A DNA stretch of 64,000 bases. Origin: Kordia sp. (GTDB lineage: Bacteria; Bacteroidota; Bacteroidia; Flavobacteriales; Flavobacteriaceae). The DNA lies in assembly GCA_002733415.1 (NCBI GenBank), contig NVVR01000008.1, positions 1-64,000 on the forward strand, given 5' to 3'. The notes beneath the pieces are model-generated. The model was given only the letters and a program-made list of their open reading frames with translations. It was not told where the DNA came from and did not search any database. The translations under genes were made by a program, and so were the position numbers. Numbering within the stretch: the first letter of the stretch is position 1; each line of letters begins with the position of its first letter. Positions 1 to 19,107 of the stretch are shown one piece after another.

Positions 1-59
1 ATCTCAAGTCTCTGAACCTATAACAACCTTACTCTATTCTTTTTGTTCTTGTATTTATT

Positions 60-300
60 AACACTAAAATAGAAATTGTAAACTTAGGACACCTATAAAA
101 TAATACGGGTTTAGTGCTTAATCCGAGCCGTAAGTGTATATTTACATAGTCGCCAAGCCTTTTAGTTTGGCTTTTACAAAACGACAAACTAAAATCAAAA
201 CAAAAAGCTCATGGCTTGTATCGACACGAAAATATGTGGATTTTCTGCCACGTATTATTCATGACCAAACGTTGGCATTCATTACCTATATGATTCAGTA
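60..300. repeat. Palindrome-rich gene-free block, cassette-boundary-like
   Basis: No gene is visible in positions 1-400 on either strand. The block holds several short inverted repeats: AAGCC/GGCTT (155-159 and 169-173), TTTTAGTTTG/CAAACTAAAA (160-169 and 185-194), and an AATATGTGG/CCACGTATT hairpin with one mismatch (231-239 and 248-256). It ends in AACGTTGGCATT near 268. From memory, similar blocks ending in an ACGTTGGC-type sequence recur between accessory genes in flavobacterial genomes; this recollection was not checked. It may be a repeated recombination or gene-boundary element. Positions 1-60 and 285-350 show nothing I can name. Confidence 0.4.
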
Positions 301-351
301 AATTCAAGTACCAACTTTAAAAGTAAAAAACAAATAGACCTATTTAAATCA

Positions 352-404
352 ATAAGCCAAAGTGTCGAATTATCTAAATTAAAATTTAAATGACTTTGGC
401 TTAT
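352..404 (-). terminator. Inverted repeat at the 3' end of the regulator gene
   Basis: Two perfect 12-base arms (ATAAGCCAAAGT at 352-363, ACTTTGGCTTAT at 393-404) flank a 29-base AT-rich loop. The right arm covers the stop codon of the regulator gene that ends at 401. The loop is long and no clear T-run follows on the minus strand, so the element could be a terminator, an mRNA-stabilising hairpin, or part of the repeat block to its left. Confidence 0.45.
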
Positions 405-694
405 AGTAGGCCCCTTACTATACGCTTCAATTCTTCTACATGCAATTCAAATGCCCTTCTACCTTTAGTGGTCAAATGAAACCATCTACGCTCTCTCCCA
501 TTTACCTTGCTTTTTTTTTGTTTTATGTAGCATACATCTTCTAGTTGTTTAATATGTTTAGATAGTACGGAATCACTAACACCCAACTCATCACGAATCA
601 CTCGAAATTCCACTTGTTCAAGTGATGAAAGCAATGCACAAATTTGGAGACGGTTAGGTGCATGTATTATATTGTCAAATTTTGAATTCTCCAT
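401..694 (-). CDS. Winged-helix transcriptional regulator (MarR/HTH_34-like)
   Basis: A 97-residue single-domain DNA-binding protein. Residues 31-52 form the helix-turn-helix, with a probable recognition helix around DSVLSKHIKQLE, followed by a basic beta wing at about residues 56-77. The size and layout match the short MarR-like, PadR-adjacent winged-helix regulators common in Bacteroidota, which have no ligand domain. Its ATG overlaps the TAA of the upstream membrane-protein gene by one base (TAATG), so the two are translationally coupled. The pair is probably autoregulated through the palindromes at 1184-1231; this is inferred from position. The ligand or signal is unknown. Confidence 0.8.
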   Translation of the reverse strand: MENSKFDNIIHAPNRLQICALLSSLEQVEFRVIRDELGVSDSVLSKHIKQLEDVCYIKQKKSKVNGRERRWFHLTTKGRRAFELHVEELKRIVRGLL

Positions 695-1164
695 TAGTTT
701 TTGTCTTCATTAAATCTGTTATTATATGTACGGTGCGCACTCACTACCAAACTCCAAATACTAATTGTAACAAGCCCACCTATAGCAAACGGAGCCAAAT
801 AATAATCAAAATGATTATTTAGATATTGACCACTAATTATTGCTAAAAAATAAAGTGGGATGACGCAAATGAGACAAATAATTATCGTTTGCTTTGGAAG
901 CAAGATTCTTTCCCTTACTCCTGCTGATTGGTTTTTATTAATTATTGCAATTGAGATAATTACAATTAACACGATTAAAATCGTATTGTAAGTCCTAATT
1001 TCAGCGCCTAACAATGCAATTTGAGTCCCTATTAGTGTACCCAAAATAACACCAAGCCATCTAGGTGATGGTAAGATTCGTTTTAAGCCAGCATATTCCA
1101 TTTCTTTAATTGAATCAAGTGCTTCTTGTGCTTCTTCTGTTTTAATGTGTTTATTTTTTTTCAT
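694..1164 (-). CDS. Four-helix membrane protein paired with a winged-helix regulator
   Basis: A 156-residue protein with a charged cytoplasmic N-terminus (residues 1-30) and four predicted membrane segments at about 36-54, 59-75, 92-111 and 122-142. I recognise no catalytic motif and cannot name the family. It is the first gene of a two-gene unit, with the regulator following through a TAATG overlap. Such membrane-protein/short-regulator pairs are common in Bacteroidota, and in this arrangement the membrane protein is often the main regulated target. The ATG at 1164 is 34 bases from a good -7 box (1199-1206). The function is unknown; the membrane location is well supported. Confidence 0.7.
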   Translation of the reverse strand: MKKNKHIKTEEAQEALDSIKEMEYAGLKRILPSPRWLGVILGTLIGTQIALLGAEIRTYNTILIVLIVIISIAIINKNQSAGVRERILLPKQTIIICLICVIPLYFLAIISGQYLNNHFDYYLAPFAIGGLVTISIWSLVVSAHRTYNNRFNEDKN

Positions 1165-1183
1165 CGTATAAATGTTATATTAC

Positions 1184-1231
1184 TTTCCATATTGGAAACA
1201 AATATACAATAACTTTCCATCTCGGAAAGTT
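1184..1231 (-). promoter_or_regulatory. Promoter bracketed by two matching operator palindromes
   Basis: Two inverted repeats with the same core lie upstream of the membrane-protein gene: TTTCC-N5-GGAAA at 1184-1198 and the longer AACTTTCC-N5-GGAAAGTT at 1211-1231. Their centres are exactly 30 bases apart, about three helical turns. Between them, on the minus strand, is TATATTTG (1199-1206), a perfect Bacteroidota -7 box (TAnnTTTG). The distal palindrome covers the place where a -33 element would be. This is the layout expected for repression by the winged-helix protein encoded at 401-694. Confidence 0.65.
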
Positions 1232-1286
1232 ATATAGTGTTTATTTTTATTTATTAAAAATTGAGAGAATAGTTAAAAACAAATAA

Positions 1287-1653
1287 CCATTTGAAAAACA
1301 AAATGCCAACAACACACTAACAGAGCATTTCAAAGCTGACGATACACAGTTTAAGAAGTATGTAAACCAGATGTTTAAAGAAAGTAAACTCTCAAGTTTT
1401 ATTAAATACATAGAAGACTTCTTCATAACAATTGGTATTGTTTAACAAATATACTTCCAATAGATACTAGAAAATTGATGTTCTATTATGAGTTGTCTGA
1501 AGTTAATATATTTTCTAAAAAAAGCTGATAGAACACTATCTAATGCACATCCTGTTTCTAGAAAAAGAAGCTGAAGATAAACTGACTAAAAATGTAATAG
1601 AGCTTTTATCTGTTGTAGATATGAGTGAAATCAATGAAAGAGTAAAGTTATAA
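1287..1653 (+). pseudogene. Frameshifted remnant of an unknown gene
   Basis: Between 1232 and 1690 no intact gene exists, but three consecutive plus-strand stretches read as ordinary protein: 1287-1445 (51 codons from FEKQNANN to FITIGIV, then a stop), about 1445-1525 (TNILPIDTRKL to NIFSK), and about 1519-1653 (KKLIEHYL to INERVKL, stop). The last two join by a one-base shift in a run of seven A residues at 1517-1523. No start codon is visible for the first piece, so the 5' end is also missing. I do not recognise the family. It lies beside an integrase gene, which fits decay of a mobile-element cargo gene. Confidence 0.5.
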
Positions 1654-1690
1654 ACTGAAACATTTAATTTTAATATTGTTTATTTTAGCT

Positions 1691-2968
1691 TTATAAATAG
1701 TTTAAGAAGCTTATTACTTTTTCATGCTCCCTGTCTTGAATCTCGTAAGAGATTTCGCCTTGATAGTTGAAACTTACCCCTTGCGATTTATGCCCTTGAA
1801 TTAGTTCCATAATATGTGTGTCAATTAATAATTGACCTGATCTTGTTCTAAATAAGTACCTGGGGGATTTTGTTTTAATCGTGTCCGTTAGTTCTAGCTT
1901 TTTAGAAATAAGCTTTAATCTTCTTGAAGCATTTTGCCTGAAGTATTCATATTCGGTTGTTTCCACTTCGGGTATAAAACCGAAAATTCGAACTTCTTTT
2001 TTTGTTCCGTACTTTTCTATAATATCCAAAGCTTTAGGAAACAATTTTACATCAACCGTTGCGCCACCGTTTCGTTTTCTTCTGTTTTTATGGCGTTTGA
2101 AAGTGATTCTATTGTTTTTTAACTTAGTCCAAGTAAGATTTGCAATATCGGCTAAATCATGGCCGCCAACAAAGAATTGGAATAACCATATGTTTACAAG
2201 TTCGTTTGTGCTTTTAATATAGGCTTTTGATGTTATGACACTATTCTCAATGTTAAGCAGTTTTTTAAAATCTTCATCTTCAAGGCTAACAATTTCAGAT
2301 TTTCTTGAAACTGTTTTAATAAGTCCTAAAAATGGGTTATCTGTTTTAATTCCTAAAGACTCCCTTCTTTGCGCTTCTTTGTAAATTATTCTTATATTTT
2401 TTAAGTAGTACATGATACCGGCTTCTCCAGTCCCTTCTCTTTTTTTATAAAGTATGAATTCGTTTAACCATTCATAAGTCACTTCATTAATTGCAATATC
2501 TTGAAGTGTGAAATCTTGTATTTGTTTTTTGGTTAACTCAAAAGGGCGAACATCTTCTTTAAAATCAATTTTTTCTTTTATTCTAACGTCATAAAAATCA
2601 ATCAGTTTTGCGCTATAATTCCCTTCTAATTCCTTCAGACGTTGCTTTAAAAAAAATATTTCAAGTTCCTTGTCTTCAAGTCCGGCTTCAATTAATTTTA
2701 AAGCGTTTGTTAGGTTTAATTTTTGTTTGTTGCAATATTCAATTTCTTCTTGAAGCGCAAAAGCTCGTTTATTTAATTTACCATTTAATCTTCTGAAATC
2801 AGGATGCGATTTCAATAAGCCATTCTCCCAATGGTGTATATCCGAGTACCAAAAAAGAGAAACATACTTATGTTTCTTTATGACTGAATCATACACACGA
2901 ATTTTTAAAGGATAGCCTTCTTCAGTTGCACGCCTTGTGTCTAGTATGATTTTTCCTTTAATACTCAC
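1691..2968 (-). CDS. Tyrosine recombinase/integrase with non-canonical active-site residues
   Basis: A 425-residue protein of the Bacteroidota phage-integrase family. It has an N-terminal arm-binding region (about 1-110, partly coiled coil), a SAM-like core-binding domain (about 115-215) and a catalytic domain (about 230-425). The catalytic landmarks can be placed: the first Arg box reads GGHDLADIANL, with His270 where Arg is expected; the HxxR box reads KSPR, with Lys367 for His and Arg370 kept; GH is present at 392-393 and the nucleophile is probably Tyr402. It could be a functional variant, since some Bacteroidota integrases depart from the RHR set, or a decaying enzyme. It sits at the edge of an accessory region and may have inserted it, but I could not identify attachment sites. 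Confidence 0.8.
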   Translation of the reverse strand: MSIKGKIILDTRRATEEGYPLKIRVYDSVIKKHKYVSLFWYSDIHHWENGLLKSHPDFRRLNGKLNKRAFALQEEIEYCNKQKLNLTNALKLIEAGLEDKELEIFFLKQRLKELEGNYSAKLIDFYDVRIKEKIDFKEDVRPFELTKKQIQDFTLQDIAINEVTYEWLNEFILYKKREGTGEAGIMYYLKNIRIIYKEAQRRESLGIKTDNPFLGLIKTVSRKSEIVSLEDEDFKKLLNIENSVITSKAYIKSTNELVNIWLFQFFVGGHDLADIANLTWTKLKNNRITFKRHKNRRKRNGGATVDVKLFPKALDIIEKYGTKKEVRIFGFIPEVETTEYEYFRQNASRRLKLISKKLELTDTIKTKSPRYLFRTRSGQLLIDTHIMELIQGHKSQGVSFNYQGEISYEIQDREHEKVISFLNYL

Positions 2969-3102
2969 TTAACCGTTTACAATAAATTTGCAATAAAAGT
3001 ACTAAAAAACAATGCGAAAAAGGGTTAAATCGTATTTTTAACAACATTCAAAGTGCCATTTATTCTTATTCTAAATAACCGCAACTACCAGTATTCATGG
3101 GT

Positions 3103-3123
3103 ATTGTGTTAATTTTTCACAAT
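3103..3123. promoter_or_regulatory. Short inverted repeat upstream of the lipoprotein gene
   Basis: ATTGTG and CACAAT arms are separated by nine bases in the 250-base gap between the integrase and the lipoprotein gene. It could be an operator. The arms are short in AT-rich DNA, so chance is possible. No clear -7 box was found nearby. Confidence 0.2.
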
Positions 3124-3218
3124 GTTTTTACCTTAGTTGATTATTTAACAGTGCATTAACAGCAATATCCCAACATAAAAATTAAATTTGTTATTATATA
3201 ATAGATTACTCTACTAGT

Positions 3219-4598
3219 ATGATTAAACTTTTACCTTTATCTTACCTCTTACTTTTCATGGCTTTTATTAGTTGTACAGAAAAGACAGAAACAGAAGATG
3301 CTACGTATTTTGGAGGGGAAATTATAAACCCTAAAGATGATTTTGTGCTTTTATATAAAGATGAGATACTTATTGATTCTATTAAATTAGATGATAAAAA
3401 TAGATTCTTACACAAGTTTAAGGATTTCATTCCTGGCTTATATCATTTTAATCATGAAGAATATCAGTATGTATACATTGAAGCTAAAGACAGTATTGTT
3501 TTTAGGTTAAACACAATAGATTTTGATGAATCATTAACCTTCTCAGGTAAAGGCGCACATAAAAACAACTTTATCATTAATACTTTTTTAGCCAATGAAA
3601 ATCATAGTGCCAAATCAGGTAGGTTATATAAATTTCCTCCAAAAAAATTCTCGACAATAATTTCAGGAGAATTAAGCCAGCGTATTAATATGCTTAAGCA
3701 ATACAAAGAACTTTATGACTTTTCTGATGATTTTATGTATGTTGCTAATGCACATATTGTATATCATTTTTATGCCACAAAAGAGCGCTACCCAATATAC
3801 AACAAACAACATGCAGACTCTATTGATGTAAACTTATTTTATGATTTCAGAAAAAACATTGATTTCAACACTAGTAATTTAGGGTCGTTTTATCCATATT
3901 ATGAGTATTTATATGCGCTAATTGATAATTTAAGTGTAGAACATTTAAAAAACTCTGGTATTAAAGAAGATCATATTGCGAACTATACTTCAAAAACAGA
4001 AGTTATTGATTCATTAATTCAAAATAAATCCTTAAAAAATCAATTGCTTAAAAATACAACACTACATTATTTAAAGACTGTGAAATGTGGGAATCAAGCA
4101 ACATTAATTTTAACAGGATTTGACAAATACAATAGTGATGATGTTAATAAAGAAAAAATAACTGGACTTGTTAACGCCATTAAACGCTTAGGCTATGGTA
4201 ATCCGTTACCTGATTTTAATGTTATCAGTACTAATAATCAAACTATTGCTTTTAAAAACACTTTACAAAACAAACCAACCGTACTATATTTCTGGTCAAG
4301 TAATAACCCTAGACATATTAAGAGTGTACACCGAAAAGTTACTCAATACGCAACTAATAGCAATTATAATTTTGTTGGCATATCTTTAGACAACAATAAA
4401 AAAGATTGGAAAGTATACGCACAAAAATTCAACTTGACAAACGTATTTTCATTAGAAACTCCAAAAGAAACTAGAGAAGAATTATTAATACAGAACATTA
4501 ACAAGGTTTATGTATTGGATAAAAACGCAAAAATTTTAAGCGCTGACTTAAATATATTTGACCCTCATTTCAATAAAAAATTAAAGTCTTTACACTAA
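3219..4598 (+). CDS. TlpA-like lipoprotein with a thioredoxin fold lacking the CXXC motif
   Basis: A 459-residue lipoprotein. The N-terminal hydrophobic segment ends in the lipobox FISC, with Cys19 as the lipidated residue. A middle region (about 30-320) resembles the helical and beta segments that precede TlpA/AhpC-type domains in Bacteroidota. The thioredoxin-like domain occupies about residues 325-459. Where a redox-active member would carry CXXC after the core strand, this protein has YFWSSNNPRH from Tyr357, so both cysteines are absent. Disulfide exchange is therefore unlikely, and a binding or chaperone-type role is more plausible. It lies 37 bases upstream of an ABC-type pair but need not be functionally linked. 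Confidence 0.7.
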   Translation: MIKLLPLSYLLLFMAFISCTEKTETEDATYFGGEIINPKDDFVLLYKDEILIDSIKLDDKNRFLHKFKDFIPGLYHFNHEEYQYVYIEAKDSIVFRLNTIDFDESLTFSGKGAHKNNFIINTFLANENHSAKSGRLYKFPPKKFSTIISGELSQRINMLKQYKELYDFSDDFMYVANAHIVYHFYATKERYPIYNKQHADSIDVNLFYDFRKNIDFNTSNLGSFYPYYEYLYALIDNLSVEHLKNSGIKEDHIANYTSKTEVIDSLIQNKSLKNQLLKNTTLHYLKTVKCGNQATLILTGFDKYNSDDVNKEKITGLVNAIKRLGYGNPLPDFNVISTNNQTIAFKNTLQNKPTVLYFWSSNNPRHIKSVHRKVTQYATNSNYNFVGISLDNNKKDWKVYAQKFNLTNVFSLETPKETREELLIQNINKVYVLDKNAKILSADLNIFDPHFNKKLKSLH

Positions 4599-4911: not shown

Positions 4912-5585
4912 AAACACTACACGTAGATAGTATTAACAAAAGCTATGACAATAATAAAATATTAAGCGACATTTTTCTTACCTGTAAAAAAGGAGAAATA
5001 GTTGGTTTAATTGGACGTAATGGCTCTGGAAAATCTACACTATTAAAAATCATTTTCGGAATTGAAAAATGCGAAAATAAATTTATTCAAATTGGTGATA
5101 AAGTAATAAACAATATCGCAAGCGGGAGAACTCTAATTAATTACTTGCCTCAGGAAAATTTTTTACCTAATAACATTCAAATAAAATCGTTAATAAACTT
5201 ATTCCTACCCAAAGAAAATAGACATGAATTAGTAAATAACGATTACATCAAACCGCTACTTCATAAAAAGAATCAAGAATTATCTGGTGGCGAAAAAAGA
5301 GTTATAGAAATTTTATTAATTATTCACTCAAACGCTGAGATTATCCTTCTTGATGAACCTTTTAATGGTATTAGTCCAATTATAAGAACTTACATCATCA
5401 ATCATATTAGAAAAATGAAATCATCTAAAGGATACATTATTACTGACCATGATTATGAAAACGTAATTAATTTGGCTGACAAAATCATGTTTCTAAAAAA
5501 TGGTGTTTTAAAAGAAGTAATAAACCAAAAGCAATTGGTAGATTTAGGGTACTTACCTCAAACTAGTTACGACATGCTTAATTGA
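4908..5585 (+). CDS. ABC transporter ATP-binding protein
   Basis: A 225-residue nucleotide-binding subunit with a full motif set: Walker A GRNGSGKST (36-44), Q-loop around PQEN (81-84), signature LSGGE (125-129), Walker B IILLDEP (145-151) and H-loop His181. Its closest general resemblance is to stand-alone export-type ATPases such as LptB. The gene overlaps the 91-residue membrane-protein gene by four bases and ends 115 bases before hutI. With only one very small membrane partner beside it, the full transporter may use a permease encoded elsewhere. The substrate cannot be told from the sequence. Confidence 0.85.
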   Translation: MKTLHVDSINKSYDNNKILSDIFLTCKKGEIVGLIGRNGSGKSTLLKIIFGIEKCENKFIQIGDKVINNIASGRTLINYLPQENFLPNNIQIKSLINLFLPKENRHELVNNDYIKPLLHKKNQELSGGEKRVIEILLIIHSNAEIILLDEPFNGISPIIRTYIINHIRKMKSSKGYIITDHDYENVINLADKIMFLKNGVLKEVINQKQLVDLGYLPQTSYDMLN

Positions 5586-5666
5586 AGCCTCCTCGTAATA
5601 GATACCAAACTCGCAAATAAAGTTTTTCTAACATCGTATTTAACACGATAGTTTAAAAAAAATAAA

Positions 5667-5674
5667 GATATTTG
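5667..5674 (+). promoter_or_regulatory. Probable -7 box of hutI
   Basis: GATATTTG differs from the TAnnTTTG consensus only at its first base and lies 26 bases upstream of the hutI ATG. No convincing -33 element was seen. Confidence 0.35.
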
Positions 5675-5700
5675 CATTCCTAAATTTCAATACTTAAATT

Positions 5701-6942
5701 ATGAACCGCAAAGCGTTTATCAATATCAAGCAATTACTTCAAGTAGAAACCAATACATTAAAATTAAAAGTTTCTGGAGAAGAAATGAAAACCTTACCAT
5801 TGATTAACAATGCGTATCTAATTGTTGAAAATGATGAAATAGTTGACTTTGGAGAAATGAATAACTTTCAAAACAACAATACCTTAACCACCATTGATTG
5901 TACCGGACAAATCATATTACCTACTTGGTATGACAGTCATACACATATTGTTTACGCTGGAAATCGTGAGCAAGAATTTGTTGACAGAATTAACGGACTT
6001 ACTTACGAGGAAATTGCTAGTAACGGCGGTGGGATATTAAATTCTGCTAAAAAGTTACAAGAAATTTCTGAAGAAGAATTATACAAACAATCAGCGGAAC
6101 GATTAGACGAAGTTATTAAATTAGGAACTGGTGGTATCGAAATTAAATCTGGATACGGATTAACTGTAGCTGCGGAACTAAAAATGTTACGTACTATAAA
6201 GAAACTAAAAGAAAATTACAATATCCCAATAAAAGCTACATTCCTTGGTGCACATGCTGTTCCTGCTGAATACAAAGGAAATAAACAAGGGTATTTAGAT
6301 TTGATCATAAATGAAATGTTACCACTAATTTCTAAAGAAAACTTAGCGGAATATATCGATATTTTTTGTGAAACCGGATATTTCTCTGTAGATGATACAG
6401 AACAAATATTAGCCGCTGGAAAACAATACGGATTAATACCAAAAACACATGTAAACCAGTTTACATCTATAGGCGGAATACAAAAAAGCATCGAATACAA
6501 TGCGCTAACAGTAGATCATTTAGAATTAGTAAGTGATGAGGATTTAGCAGCTTTAAAAAATTCTGATACCATGCCTGTAGCCTTGCCTTCATGCTCGTAT
6601 TTTTTATCTATCCCTTATACTCCTGCACGGCAATTAATTGACAATGGTTTAGCTCTTGCTCTTGCTACGGATTACAACCCTGGTTCTACCCCTTCAGGAA
6701 ACATGAATTTTGTAGTAAGTACTGCCTGTATTAAAATGAAAATGACTCCTGAAGAAGCCATTAATGCAGCTACCATTAATGGTGCCTATGCAATGGGGAT
6801 TTCAGCTACGCACGGAAGTATTGCTAAAGGTAAAAAAGCAAATATTATTATCACAAAACCTATTAACTCATATAATGTTTTACCTTATTCCTTCGGAACT
6901 AACAATATTTCAACCGTTTTAATTAATGGAGAATTCATATAA
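5701..6942 (+). CDS. hutI: Imidazolonepropionase (histidine degradation)
   Basis: A 413-residue amidohydrolase that opens the ring of imidazolone-5-propionate to give N-formimidoyl-L-glutamate, the third step of histidine breakdown, in the cytoplasm. The metal ligands typical of the family are visible: HTH after DS (His80 and His82), a His in FLGAHAVP, a His in KTHVNQF and an Asp in LATDYNPGS. The length matches HutI from other bacteria. The other hut genes are not in this window, so the pathway is dispersed in this genome. It is a single-gene unit ending in a strong terminator at 6981-7012. Confidence 0.95.
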   Translation: MNRKAFINIKQLLQVETNTLKLKVSGEEMKTLPLINNAYLIVENDEIVDFGEMNNFQNNNTLTTIDCTGQIILPTWYDSHTHIVYAGNREQEFVDRINGLTYEEIASNGGGILNSAKKLQEISEEELYKQSAERLDEVIKLGTGGIEIKSGYGLTVAAELKMLRTIKKLKENYNIPIKATFLGAHAVPAEYKGNKQGYLDLIINEMLPLISKENLAEYIDIFCETGYFSVDDTEQILAAGKQYGLIPKTHVNQFTSIGGIQKSIEYNALTVDHLELVSDEDLAALKNSDTMPVALPSCSYFLSIPYTPARQLIDNGLALALATDYNPGSTPSGNMNFVVSTACIKMKMTPEEAINAATINGAYAMGISATHGSIAKGKKANIIITKPINSYNVLPYSFGTNNISTVLINGEFI

Positions 6943-6980
6943 TTATATTTAAAATAAAAAACCAAAATATCCGATATTAA

Positions 6981-7012
6981 AAAAGGCGTTTTTTATATAA
7001 AAAACGCCTTTT
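6981..7012. terminator. Bidirectional terminator between hutI and the ompA-like gene
   Basis: A perfect 14-bp inverted repeat (6981-6994 and 6999-7012) with core GGCG/CGCC and an ATAT loop. T-runs on both strands allow it to end hutI on the plus strand and the convergent OmpA-family gene on the minus strand. Confidence 0.9.
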
Positions 7013-7030
7013 TACTTATCTATAAAAGTT

Positions 7031-8098
7031 TTATTTTACCATATAAATATCCACTCTTCTATTCAGTACCATTTCTTTTGAAGAACAATTTTCACAATCA
7101 ACCTTTGGACTATCCTCTCCTTCTGATTGTATTTCTATTTCAACATTCGTAATTCCGTTAAGTTCAAAGAATGTTTTGATTGTATTTGCACGCTCCATTC
7201 CAAAACTGTAATTATAATCCGAGCTACCATAAAAATCAGTATGCCCAACTAACTTTAATTTAGCATTTTTGGGAATATTAAGAATTAAATGATTTAATAA
7301 ATTTGTAGAATACTCAGTTAAATCTTTATCATTAAAAGGAAAATGAATACTCTTTATATTACTAAATACTACAGCTTTTCCTATAACATTTGAAATAATT
7401 GACGTATCTGAAAGTGTTCCTACAGCTAGTGCACTATAATTTGATAAATCAATTTCTTCCACAGTAGTTATTGACCCTTTATCTATAGTACTTGACTCTT
7501 CTAAAAAAGAAAATTCAGACTTTCTTGTATTAAAGGTTAGACTATCAACCACACTAGAGACCCTAACCCAATTCCCGTTTTTAAAACCTAAAATTGTTAA
7601 CCCATCCTTATTTAGTATATTATCGCTAAAATATAAACTTATTTTTGATGTGTTATTACTAGCTATAGACCAATACCCATTTTTACTTATTACCTCGAAC
7701 TCTTGAGAGCCACTAGTAGGAAAATTCATTGGCGGTTCGTTGAAATAACATACCGTACTATTTTTCGAATTTGTAAGCACCAAAGGACAGTACTTTTCAT
7801 TGTTACCAACTGGGAAAACAAAATTTGTTTCAATATTAGAAGTTACCTTTCCATCAATATACCCAGCAAACATATTTTGCTTCCATGAACTCTGCTTATC
7901 AAAAATAAAAGTGCTTGAATTTTCTGCTCTATTTGTTTTTACCACACTATTTAATTCATAGGTATCATGAATCACAATTCCATTGCCCGTATTATTATTA
8001 TGAATAAAAAAATTGCTTTCGGCTGAAAAACCATTTTGAGCTTGGATGACATTACCTGTAAACAAACTTAGGAGTATTAAATAAAATATCTTCCTCAT
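7031..8098 (-). CDS. OmpA-family outer-membrane protein, partner of a collagen-like protein
   Basis: A 355-residue exported protein. A signal peptide (about 1-20) ends in IQAQ. The middle part is beta-rich and resembles the gene-product cores found next to surface repeat proteins. The C-terminal 100 residues form an OmpA-like peptidoglycan-binding domain: a conserved GHTDFYGSSDYN segment is followed by ERANTIKTFFELNGI and RRVDIYMVK. A CENC pair (DCENCSSK) lies near the end. It starts only three bases after the collagen-like gene, so the two form an operon. It may anchor the collagen-like fibre or the envelope to peptidoglycan; that link is inferred from gene order. Confidence 0.8.
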   Translation of the reverse strand: MRKIFYLILLSLFTGNVIQAQNGFSAESNFFIHNNNTGNGIVIHDTYELNSVVKTNRAENSSTFIFDKQSSWKQNMFAGYIDGKVTSNIETNFVFPVGNNEKYCPLVLTNSKNSTVCYFNEPPMNFPTSGSQEFEVISKNGYWSIASNNTSKISLYFSDNILNKDGLTILGFKNGNWVRVSSVVDSLTFNTRKSEFSFLEESSTIDKGSITTVEEIDLSNYSALAVGTLSDTSIISNVIGKAVVFSNIKSIHFPFNDKDLTEYSTNLLNHLILNIPKNAKLKLVGHTDFYGSSDYNYSFGMERANTIKTFFELNGITNVEIEIQSEGEDSPKVDCENCSSKEMVLNRRVDIYMVK

Positions 8099-8101
8099 AA
8101 T

Positions 8102-9226
8102 TTATTTATTTTCAACAGTTGAAGAATCATTTTTTTCTAATGAATCAATACGCTGCACAAGTTCATCAATTAATTCCTGCTGTTTTGCTATAGCCATCTC
8201 TTGTACTTCAATTTTAGAAGTTAATCCATCTATAACAGACTGGTCTGCTGAGTTCCCTCGATCTCCTTTCTGACCACGTTCACCCTGATCACCTTGATCA
8301 CCTTTCTCTCCGCGACCTCCTTTTTCACCATTTACTCCACCAGAACCATCTCTTCCATCATCTCCATCTTTGCCGTCAGCTCCGTCCTTTCCATCTGCAC
8401 CGTCAGCTCCATCACGTCCATTAGATCCGTCTGCTCCATCTCGGCCATCTTTTCCACGTTCTCCTCTATCACCTTCATCACCTTTTCTTCCTTGTTTCCC
8501 TTGCTTTCCGTCTTTTCCTTGCTTCCCTTCCTTTCCACGTTCACCTCTATCACCTTCTTTTCCTTTTTTCCCTTGCTTTCCTTCTTTACCATCATCGCCT
8601 TTATCTCCCTTTTTCCCTTCCTTTCCACGTTCCCCTCTGTCACCTTCATTTCCTTTTTTTCCTTGCTTCCCGTCTTTTCCATCATCGCCTTTATCTCCCT
8701 TTTTTCCTTCTTTTCCTCGCTCACCTTTATCACCTTCATTTCCTTGGTTTCCTACTTTACCGTCATCTCCTTTATCTCCCTGATTTCCTTCCTTTCCACG
8801 TTCTCCTTCACTCCCTTTTTCCCCAAGCTTTCCTTCTTCACCATCATCTCCTTTATCTCCCTGCTTTCCTTCTTCACCTTTCTCTCCTCTTTCTCCTTCT
8901 TTTCCATCACGGCCATCTGTACCTTTTTCACCAGTATCACCTTGATTTCCTTTCCCTCCAGAGTTAGACGATTGCCAACCATTGTTTGTAAATACTTGTA
9001 AGTTATTATCAGTTGTATTATATAATGTAGCACCAATTAAAGGTTCACCTAAAGCATCCCTTTCTGAGGTTGATAATCTTGGAAATACAAAAGTTCCAGA
9101 ATCAGTTTCTATTTCTAATACAGACGTTTTGTGAATTGATTCTAAATTTTTTCCGATTTTTAATTGTGCTTGAGAATTTAATGCGCACAACAGCATCATA
9201 ACAAATAAGTAGTTGTTAAATTTCAT
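8102..9226 (-). CDS. Collagen-like surface protein with uninterrupted Gly-X-Y repeats
   Basis: A 374-residue exported protein. It has a signal peptide (1-20, ending SQAQ), then a flavobacterial head motif (about 31-88, with FVFPRLSTSERDAL and LYNTT.NLQVF..NGW), then 79 consecutive Gly-X-Y triplets (residues 90-326), then a short C-terminal coiled coil (about 330-365) that could drive trimerisation. The triplets contain no proline and are very rich in Lys, Asp, Glu, Arg, Gln and Asn. KGD and KGE steps, which give the axial salt bridges known to stabilise collagen helices, are frequent. It is the first gene of an operon with the OmpA-family gene. Length may vary by repeat slippage. The role, perhaps adhesion or a surface stalk, is inferred. 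Confidence 0.85.
   Translation of the reverse strand: MKFNNYLFVMMLLCALNSQAQLKIGKNLESIHKTSVLEIETDSGTFVFPRLSTSERDALGEPLIGATLYNTTDNNLQVFTNNGWQSSNSGGKGNQGDTGEKGTDGRDGKEGERGEKGEEGKQGDKGDDGEEGKLGEKGSEGERGKEGNQGDKGDDGKVGNQGNEGDKGERGKEGKKGDKGDDGKDGKQGKKGNEGDRGERGKEGKKGDKGDDGKEGKQGKKGKEGDRGERGKEGKQGKDGKQGKQGRKGDEGDRGERGKDGRDGADGSNGRDGADGADGKDGADGKDGDDGRDGSGGVNGEKGGRGEKGDQGDQGERGQKGDRGNSADQSVIDGLTSKIEVQEMAIAKQQELIDELVQRIDSLEKNDSSTVENK
8465..8806 (-). repeat. Tandem 81-90 bp repeats inside the collagen-like gene
   Basis: Residues 141-254 of the collagen-like protein consist of four units, each opening GERGKE, of 9, 10, 10 and 9 triplets, and a fifth partial unit starts with GERGKD. The two central 30-residue units differ at only two positions (GKD versus GKE, and GNE versus GKE). 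This is a recent internal duplication in a region able to expand or contract. Confidence 0.8.
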
Positions 9227-17244: not shown

Positions 17245-19107
17245 TTATTTACCAAAATTAGCTTTTACTTGAGTACCCTTATACTTAGCTCTTTTTGTTG
17301 CTCTCCATTGCTCTCTTTTTGCTTTAACAACATTCGGATCTCTTGAAGGAGGCGTCATGTCTTTTACTTTAATTAAATTATTTTCTAATGGTTGTTGACC
17401 ATCTACACCAAACCTATATTCTTGAAAAAACCTACGTTTTGCGGTAATTCTATAAGAAAAAGAAAAATTTGAGTTACCTCCATTTTTCTCTTTTACAGTA
17501 AACCCTTTTCCGTCTGTATCAGGTAGAAAAAACACTCCATTACTATTTCCTTGTTCCTGAATAAAAACATGCATAGGGTGTTTATCATTTATAATAATTG
17601 TTTCATGAAATAATTCATCTAAATTAATATGTACTTGTCCATTAATTAGTTTACCAGTTCCAAAATCTTCAAACCAAATTTCTGGGCTCTCCATACTATA
17701 AACTAACTGATTTCCTTTTGACGTTGGTACAGAACCTGATTTAGTTCCGTTTACAACGGCAAAATTACCATCTACATAAGCTCCGTAAGCAGTACCGGCA
17801 GTAAGATCCTTGTTCAAAGCATAAATTCCAACACCATCAGAGTAATCTATAGCTCCCCAAACACCATAATCCTGTAGTGAAGCCATATCATCATCAATTA
17901 TATTATACCCAATACCTGCAACTGCAGCACCCCATAATCTATAAGCTCCTTTTACTCCCATTTCATGATCTGAATATGCTCTACTTAAACCATAAATACC
18001 TGCTGATCCCTTTTTAGTGCCGTTTGTAATTCCATGAATTCCATAAGACTTTCCATTTTGACTATTGGTGTTCTCAACGTGTAAAACGGAGTTGTTTAAT
18101 CTGTCATCCTTAATTTGTAATTTTCTTGTTGGGATTGTAACCCCTATTCCTATATTACCAGAGTTAGTATTATACATATCTGAACCACTTATTGTCCAAT
18201 CACCATCAGGAGCTAAAGTGGGGTCTGTCCATGTAGCATTACCATAATCATCTGATACTAATATTTTACCATCACCTTGGTTCCCATCTACAATTCGAAT
18301 AACACCAATATCCATACCTGTAATAGAGATATCATCTATAGCAACACTATCAAGTCCATCTTGTGCAGAAAAATCTTTTTCATAAGTCCAAATTAAGGTA
18401 TGAGCACCAGGAGTTAACAAATAAGATACTGTCGTATATGCAGTATCCCCGGACCAAGAACCTTTTGCCACCCCATCAATATAGAAAGTTAACTCATCAT
18501 AAATAGCTTCAGTACTTGTTGTTACAGCAAATGATAAGGTTTGAGAGGATGTTACTACGGCATTATATTGTAGACTACTAGTCTCATCATCAATTAGAGA
18601 ACTTCTTGTTCTTGCTGAGAAGGTTCCAGTATTAACTAGAGCTGCTAAAGCAGTAGTTCTCCAAGTTACATCTCCGAAGGTTGTAAATGGTGCTAATGAA
18701 TTGTCCTCAAAGCCATCAATTAATGTCGCATTAGAGACCGCTGTACCCTCTACATGTAATTTATTGGTTGGTATAGCTGTTCCTACTCCTACATTCCCTG
18801 AATTGGCATTATACATATCAGTACCGGAAATTGTCCAATCAAGATCAACTCCTCCAAAGGTTGTCCATACTGTTCCATTATAGTACCAAAAACCCGGAGC
18901 AATATCAGTCTCATAAACTAATAGTCCTGTTGCAGGAGATACAATTGCTAATTTTTGAGCTTCTGACATCCTAGGGATTAATATTCCTCCTATATTTGAT
19001 TGAATATCTAATATTGAACTTACATCTGGAGTAGTTGTTCCTATACCCACTTGTGCATTAGCTTTAATAGATAAAATTAGAAAAACCATTAACACTACTT
19101 TTCTCAT
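17245..19107 (-). CDS. Large exported surface protein with head repeats and a lectin-like domain
   Basis: A 620-residue exported protein. A signal peptide (1-19, ending NAQ) is followed by a flavobacterial head module (about 20-86: VGIGTTTP, LIPRMSEAQ, LLVYETD, WYYNGT.W). Two copies of a WTISG.DMYN.NSGN.G.G module follow (91-117 and 304-330). Between them, residues about 131-264 resemble a MAM/ConA-like jelly roll (DGFED, FYIDGVAKG, AHTLIWTYEKD, AIDDI). The C-terminal part (about 440-570) resembles the tail domains of Bacteroidota surface and tail-fibre-like proteins. No type IX sorting domain is seen. It is probably an adhesin or surface fibre. It is transcribed divergently from the AraC-type regulator. 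Confidence 0.75.
   Translation of the reverse strand: MRKVVLMVFLILSIKANAQVGIGTTTPDVSSILDIQSNIGGILIPRMSEAQKLAIVSPATGLLVYETDIAPGFWYYNGTVWTTFGGVDLDWTISGTDMYNANSGNVGVGTAIPTNKLHVEGTAVSNATLIDGFEDNSLAPFTTFGDVTWRTTALAALVNTGTFSARTRSSLIDDETSSLQYNAVVTSSQTLSFAVTTSTEAIYDELTFYIDGVAKGSWSGDTAYTTVSYLLTPGAHTLIWTYEKDFSAQDGLDSVAIDDISITGMDIGVIRIVDGNQGDGKILVSDDYGNATWTDPTLAPDGDWTISGSDMYNTNSGNIGIGVTIPTRKLQIKDDRLNNSVLHVENTNSQNGKSYGIHGITNGTKKGSAGIYGLSRAYSDHEMGVKGAYRLWGAAVAGIGYNIIDDDMASLQDYGVWGAIDYSDGVGIYALNKDLTAGTAYGAYVDGNFAVVNGTKSGSVPTSKGNQLVYSMESPEIWFEDFGTGKLINGQVHINLDELFHETIIINDKHPMHVFIQEQGNSNGVFFLPDTDGKGFTVKEKNGGNSNFSFSYRITAKRRFFQEYRFGVDGQQPLENNLIKVKDMTPPSRDPNVVKAKREQWRATKRAKYKGTQVKANFGK

Follow-up and report, generated by a model that had tools for sequence, protein, structure and literature searches.

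The locus raises the question of whether a Gly-X-Y tract without a single proline can serve as the rod of a collagen-like fibre, and of what an OmpA-family gene next to it would contribute. The window is the whole 64,000-nucleotide stretch of Kordia sp. that was analysed (contig NVVR01000008.1, positions 1 to 64,000, assembly GCA_002733415.1). The collagen-like gene is called gene A and its neighbour gene B, and their parts are listed in Table 1. The 79 uninterrupted proline-free triplets claimed by a sequence-only reading of this DNA were recovered with exact coordinates and count (residues 90-326, 0 Pro). The only prolines in the whole gene A protein are residues 49 and 62, both within the N-terminal head. 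Gene A matches the Pfam family Collagen (PF01391) at 130 bits (E=2.7e-38, cut-off 27.2), which is far beyond chance and places the protein in that family. Collagen was the sole Pfam domain found in gene A, and no YadA-type barrel was found. The open reading frames antisense to the tract (8294-9001, + strand) were rejected as mirror artefacts of the GGX codons.

Table 1 Features of the gene A/gene B pair in the window.
Feature	Position	Strand	Evidence
Gene A, collagen-like protein, 374 aa	8102..9226	-	ORF; PF01391 E=2.7e-38; L096 homologue with matching ends
Gene A signal peptide, aa ~1-21, cleavage near ...NSQA-Q	9164..9226	-	Inspection
Gene A head module, aa ~22-86, ~65 aa, candidate trimerisation domain	8969..9163	-	HMM, AF2, Foldseek
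Gene A Gly-X-Y tract, 79 uninterrupted triplets, aa 90-326, 0 Pro	8249..8959	-	Sequence count
Gene A C-terminal coiled coil, aa ~331-366, five heptads	8129..8236	-	Heptad analysis; L096 counterpart
Gene B (355 aa), partner protein that begins 3 nt past the A stop codon	7031..8098	-	ORF + Pfam
Gene B central domain (aa ~50-234) with homology to CHU_C-type partners	7397..7951	-	HMM E=1.7e-15
Gene B OmpA-like peptidoglycan-binding domain, aa ~248-354, GHTD + RAN motifs	7037..7357	-	PF00691
Symmetric terminator-like hairpin between B and convergent gene 5701-6942	6980..7013	.	Consensus match

The two ends of gene A were compared with related proteins. The AQ junction at the signal-peptide cleavage site is kept across 12 aligned heads, and inspection of the signal peptide gave no convincing lipobox. 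No T9SS tail was found on gene A, which ends in a bare coiled coil with no large tip domain. This coil, also part of the sequence-only reading, is supported: in its 36 residues every 'a' position is Ile, and 'd' is filled by L, Q, Q, L and L. The heptad signal of the coil alone is marginal, as 5% of shuffles equal it; the same pattern, minus exactly one heptad, is kept in the homologue L096. Coils with Ile at 'a' and Leu at 'd' often dimerise, which counts against a trimer. The neighbours of the pair encode an ABC ATPase and an amidohydrolase and, by inspection, methyltransferase-like and elongation-factor-like proteins. The Bacteroidetes-type promoter pattern gave fewer matches than chance expects, and none was suitably positioned.

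Gene B is indeed the OmpA-family operon partner that had been proposed. It lies on the same strand, 3 nt from gene A, and its OmpA domain matches PF00691 at 34.5 bits (E=2.7e-8, cut-off 27.2), which assigns it to that family. A terminator-like hairpin follows downstream, a consensus match of which 0.6 would be expected by chance. D288 and R303, which we take to be the conserved Asp and Arg of the OmpA-family ligand site, are invariant across all three partners of the OmpA type. Gene B bears a plain signal peptide, and neither a barrel, nor a lipobox, nor a T9SS tail was found in it (it falls outside CHU_C as defined by PF13585/TIGR04131). An AF2 model of gene B from three sequences reached pLDDT 39 and was left out of the fold search; among PDB sequences, the B profile hit nothing but the CHU_C tail of Aureispira GhpA.

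The pair was found to belong to a two-gene module. An HMM of the head built without the window and L096 matches the gene A head (E=2.6e-20), and an HMM of the B core built without the three OmpA-type partners matches the gene B core (E=1.7e-15); with their 3 nt spacing on one strand, genes A and B are thus members of the module. Homologues of the first 239 residues of B occur in 30 of 299 family genomes. Most of them are ~380 aa long, carry a C-terminal CHU_C domain (the T9SS type-B sorting domain) and adjoin genes with the A head. The usual order is A, then B directly downstream with a gap of 0-20 nt. In the common module, the signal peptide of A is followed by a head of ~65 aa, then by a stalk, collagen or otherwise, and finally by a tip or a coil; B is usually a CHU_C-tailed partner. 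Among Flavobacteriaceae loci chosen for collagen alone, with B counted within 250 nt on the same strand, 15 of the 27 genes with long collagen tracts have a B homologue, against 0 of 15 with short tracts (Fisher p=1.9e-4); 15/27 is probably a lower bound, because contig ends cut some of the 12 negatives. The pairing is therefore conserved across the module, and the collagen/OmpA pair itself, for which the sequence-only reading had suggested a search in other flavobacteria, was found again in an independent MAG.

The aligned B partners carry CHU_C in 15 of 19 cases and OmpA in exactly 3, and a few have type A T9SS tails. The three OmpA-type partners are those of the window, of G079 (JABSPN010000137.1, Flavobacteriaceae MAG DT_35) and of L096 (JAHDBM010000075.1, Flavobacteriales MAG-110). 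A search of 396 order-level genomes and of 299 genomes related to that of L096 gave none beyond these three, and none was found in viral contigs. In L096, a collagen A homologue at 5166-5961 lies 18 nt from the OmpA-type B. Its mature head is 59% identical to that of gene A, and both ends of the protein are conserved while the tract diverges; this tract contains a 100-N scaffold gap and ends in a run of GEK triplets next to the coil. The G079 contig ends 58 nt upstream of B, before any readable A. Translated in one frame, these 58 nt (L060 7598-7655, - strand) give GTPSATPGGGK-stop, which may be the tail of a collagen-like gene now lost. Between OmpA-type and CHU_C-type partners the core aligns and the tails diverge completely; the difference is therefore a C-terminal domain swap. 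In a tree of the B core, the OmpA partners group with short CHU_C-type partners of G020, and because support is modest, a single origin of the swap is not established. Judged by these alignments, the usual partner tail is the T9SS CHU_C domain rather than OmpA, a point absent from the sequence-only reading, and the OmpA form is a rare variant of a common flavobacterial module. In three genomes (L063, L065 and L077), a B with a type-A-like T9SS tail is followed 13-14 nt downstream by a head-module gene of ~290-360 aa, and these pairs sit near leuS or trp-type genes.

The reading that we lean towards, with somewhat better than even confidence, is that A forms a trimeric, charge-stabilised rod that is held at the cell envelope by B via peptidoglycan. 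What was computed directly comprises the tract and the modules, the head fold, the conservation of the pairing and the C-terminal swap; this reading would add trimerisation, a triple helix, A-B binding and peptidoglycan binding. The head and the C-terminal coil would gather three A chains in register into a homotrimeric rod, and the proline-free, 77%-charged tract between these ends would wind into a triple helix. In place of imino acids, charge pairs (axial Lys/Arg-Gly-Asp/Glu among others), hydration and a clamp at each end would hold the rod together. B would bind the rod through its N-terminal and central region, the part common to partners of the common form, and its OmpA domain would grip peptidoglycan so that the rod is held at the envelope. 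In the common form, the CHU_C tail would deliver the same B core to the surface; the OmpA form would swap this delivery for wall attachment.

Exposure outside the outer membrane would be the weakest step of this envelope-fibre model. No recognised outer-membrane exit signal was found in gene A or gene B, and because A has no barrel, the outer-membrane step is missing from the model. The sequence-only reading had suggested a peptidoglycan-anchored surface fibre: the OmpA domain agrees with the anchoring, and the surface location fits poorly with the plain signal peptide and the lack of a barrel and a lipobox, features that together with the OmpA domain lead us to expect B in the periplasm. A rod that is periplasmic altogether is the alternative with the strongest case, although we consider it unlikely. 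Here A and B would stop in the periplasm after Sec export, and the trimer would lie along the peptidoglycan as a spacer or stiffener held by B. Such retention suits a partner B made of a plain signal peptide and an OmpA domain and an A that likewise lacks a T9SS tail, and the exchange of CHU_C for OmpA would make a surface protein periplasmic; the common form of the module, however, has a T9SS type-B partner, so that the core was built for the outside. The tail-less A does not imply retention either, because A proteins whose C-terminus bears no recognised sorting signal also pair with CHU_C surface partners. The presence of SprA, the T9SS channel, in the host genome also argues against a purely periplasmic rod.

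The charges of the tract bear on whether it would be a rod at all. K, R, D and E fill 77% of its X and Y positions, and they are spread evenly, with 32 negative and 29 positive residues at each; Lys or Arg stands at 37% of X, as commonly as at Y. The sequence-only reading stressed frequent KGD and KGE steps (n=9 and n=2 here). The frequency is real, as [KR]G[DE] occurs 16 times against 11.6 expected (X/Y shuffling, p about 0.03), but it is only mildly special, because the reverse step [DE]G[KR] (17) is enriched just as highly. KGD/KGE as a design rule of this tract was thus rejected as stated, with DGK/EGK equally enriched. The related idea that axial salt bridges replace proline suits the relatives better than gene A, in which Gly-Asp/Glu follows only 16 of the 29 cationic Y residues and 37% of X is cationic; in the relatives without the window, the count is 751 of 853. 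This residue count is inflated by internal repeats, and the safer count is by gene: the rule of Y-Lys/Arg followed by Gly-Asp/Glu holds at 90% or more in 13 of 16 genes (those with five or more cationic Y, window left out). The gene A tract is among the least ordered examples, and its stabilisation would be less regular than in relatives; the missing Gly-Asp/Glu neighbours and the cationic X residues could weaken the helix. A triple helix rises 0.286 nm per residue, and the tract would be about 68 nm long if triple-helical.

Proline-free tracts are not unique to gene A. That notion was rejected, since such tracts recur in Flavobacteriaceae with up to 407 triplets; the long proline-free runs are of 407 (L138), 306 (L151), 153 (L139), 129 (L079) and 79 (L158) triplets. 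Because the loci were picked by PF01391 score, which probably favours Pro, such tracts may be under-sampled. Charge rises as proline falls (Spearman -0.79, p=1e-7, 31 tracts of at least 30 triplets each), and the collagen with the highest charge in the set is that of the window. Related genes with the gene A-type head and partner bear tracts that obey the Y-Lys-Gly-Asp/Glu rule. The geometry of this rule is the KGE/KGD geometry that stabilises peptides, with host-guest Tm raised by about 15-17 C (PMC7824840). For Scl2.28, a charged bacterial collagen with little proline, the melting temperature is 35.6 C at neutral pH and drops to 24.2 C under acid conditions (PMC8968730). Probably the strongest candidate for a proline-free triple helix is L138, where a collagen-like A gene (1-4302, + strand) carries its 407 proline-free triplets on a GDKGDKGDTGAAGADGINGTNGTDGAK-type repeat, with a CHU_C partner directly downstream.

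Against this background, we regard it as improbable that the gene A tract is an unfolded, glycine-rich polyampholyte linker, a flexible tether between head and coil. Its lack of proline, its 37% of Lys/Arg at X and its charges without position preference would suit such a linker, yet Gly is perfect at every third residue through 79 triplets, which would be pointless in a disordered chain. The candidate trimerisers at both ends, the conservation in L096 with its GEK repeats beside the coil, and the adherence to the charge rule in relatives with the same head and partner likewise speak for a rod.

Further observations were made on the collagen stalks. C-terminal tip families recur on them (L076 6815-10321, L138 5909-9607, L145, L158 and L167), for example '...GRYDIRANLSLVGINSGNNRQRTNVNARIAVNG...' and '...FEVIIGDNDNGGTDRSRFNSEFMFTILDL', and the tips are common to different species while the stalks vary, as in phage fibres. 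The putative C1q-like tip of L145 gave no match among PDB sequences, and the stalk protein of L146 ends in a Peptidase_S74 intramolecular chaperone. The host genome itself carries three consecutive proline-rich collagen-like genes of 210, 227 and 260 aa (contig C41, L009, 6730-8832), in contrast to the proline-free gene A. Next to this trio lie an open frame of 1958 aa and a small amidase-like gene, and the whole has the look of a prophage or defective phage. Two host contigs end within a surface protein (C12, L010 1-1220; C16, L011 7773-8807) in which short collagen stretches alternate with a 'VGITSTVDNGNGTFTLNYSDxTTFTTTDLTG' repeat; the two are probably one gene split by assembly.

The head module is a second candidate trimeriser, which the sequence-only reading had missed. 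An AF2 model from a 39-row alignment (pLDDT 90) shows an alpha/beta fold with one short helix. All Foldseek matches of this model to the PDB are weak, with TM about 0.45-0.57: the best are the phage CBA120 tailspikes (prob 0.97, E 0.06), and next come collagen XV/XVIII trimerisation domains in several crystal forms (prob 0.2-0.63, E 1.3-3, TM about 0.45/0.54). Against viral models, E values fall to 4e-5, and one match is to a phage protein that bears the name collagen triple helix repeat. The head profile found nothing meaningful among PDB sequences. The collagen XVIII trimerisation fold has been described in the N-domain of a phage tailspike (PMC8822698), and we infer from the modelled fold that the head is a trimeriser because the leading PDB matches are trimeric and this link between tailspike and collagen XVIII is published. 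Any resemblance of the head to the collagen XV/XVIII domain and the phage tailspike N-domains would lie in the fold only, and it is not strong; the head differs from the collagen XV/XVIII domain in its N-terminal position and in having no sequence match to the multiplexin Collagen_trimer family PF20010 (searched at gene A in its own genome, E<=10). The module, which flavobacterial surface proteins also carry, occurs in 16 copies in the host genome, several of them clustered on contig C78. It was further found at 156 or more IMG/VR loci, where it mostly sits close to the C-terminal end of large phage proteins of the fibre type. A second protein with this head lies within the window (17245-19107, - strand, 620 aa, 'QVGIGTTTPDVSSILDIQS...') and has a different body. 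A derivation of gene A from a phage tail-fibre gene, domesticated or degenerate and lacking a dedicated partner, so that the OmpA gene would be a chance neighbour, is already disfavoured and seems very improbable: fibre-type phage proteins commonly carry the head and phage tail-fibre proteins are known to contain collagen domains (PMC3368898), but A has a signal peptide, its neighbours described above are not phage genes, the A-B pairing is conserved, and the host genome has A-like heads at 16 sites.

Collagens of bacteria are already known, as are charged collagens with little proline and OmpA anchors. The flavobacterial pairs of stalk and CHU_C partner (PF13585/TIGR04131) share with A/B the order of parts in A, the B core, the gene order and the spacing; A/B differ from them in OmpA for CHU_C, a bare coil for a large tip, and a far more charged tract. 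The nearest functional parallel is AtaA-TpgA of Acinetobacter, in which a trimeric autotransporter is joined by a periplasmic peptidoglycan-binding partner (PMC13082670); A/B would share the long homotrimeric fibre and the peptidoglycan-binding partner. A has no autotransporter barrel, however, and B scores 29.2 bits against the TpgA cut-off of 350 bits, with only the OmpA domain in common. The Scl1/Scl2 adhesins of streptococci and the Lcl adhesin of Legionella are likewise bacterial collagens without hydroxyproline, Scl2.28 being low in proline and rich in charge, with a lollipop architecture (PMC8968730). Scl proteins retain proline, gene A has no LPXTG, and gene A stays below the NCBIfam cut-offs for Scl/Lcl (132.8/400 bits for Scl1, 131.2/325, and 96.7/500 for Lcl). 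EPcl of E. coli prophages also combines a collagen domain with a trimeric coiled coil and charged residues; about half of its X positions are Pro, it occurs with phage tail-fibre domains, and an OmpA partner is not described there (PMC3368898). No description of natural proline-free tracts of this length, of the A/B module or of the CHU_C/OmpA exchange was found in the open-licence papers that were searched.

These natural proline-free collagens test how far charge pairs alone hold a triple helix, which is now mostly a question for designed peptides. In the relatives, head and partner stay the same as the tracts run from proline-rich to proline-free, a ready series with a near-strict charge rule to which the window is the exception. 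The conserved A/B pair raises the question of how a collagen trimer without a sorting tail leaves the cell, and one partner core is found joined to two different envelope-attachment domains, CHU_C and OmpA. Somewhat short of an even chance, in our judgement, the Flavobacteriaceae may possess a widespread, undescribed fibre system of trimeric, often proline-poor or proline-free rods, each with a dedicated envelope partner that could be switched between T9SS display and peptidoglycan anchoring through exchange of its C-terminal domain, and the window would be its wall-anchored form.
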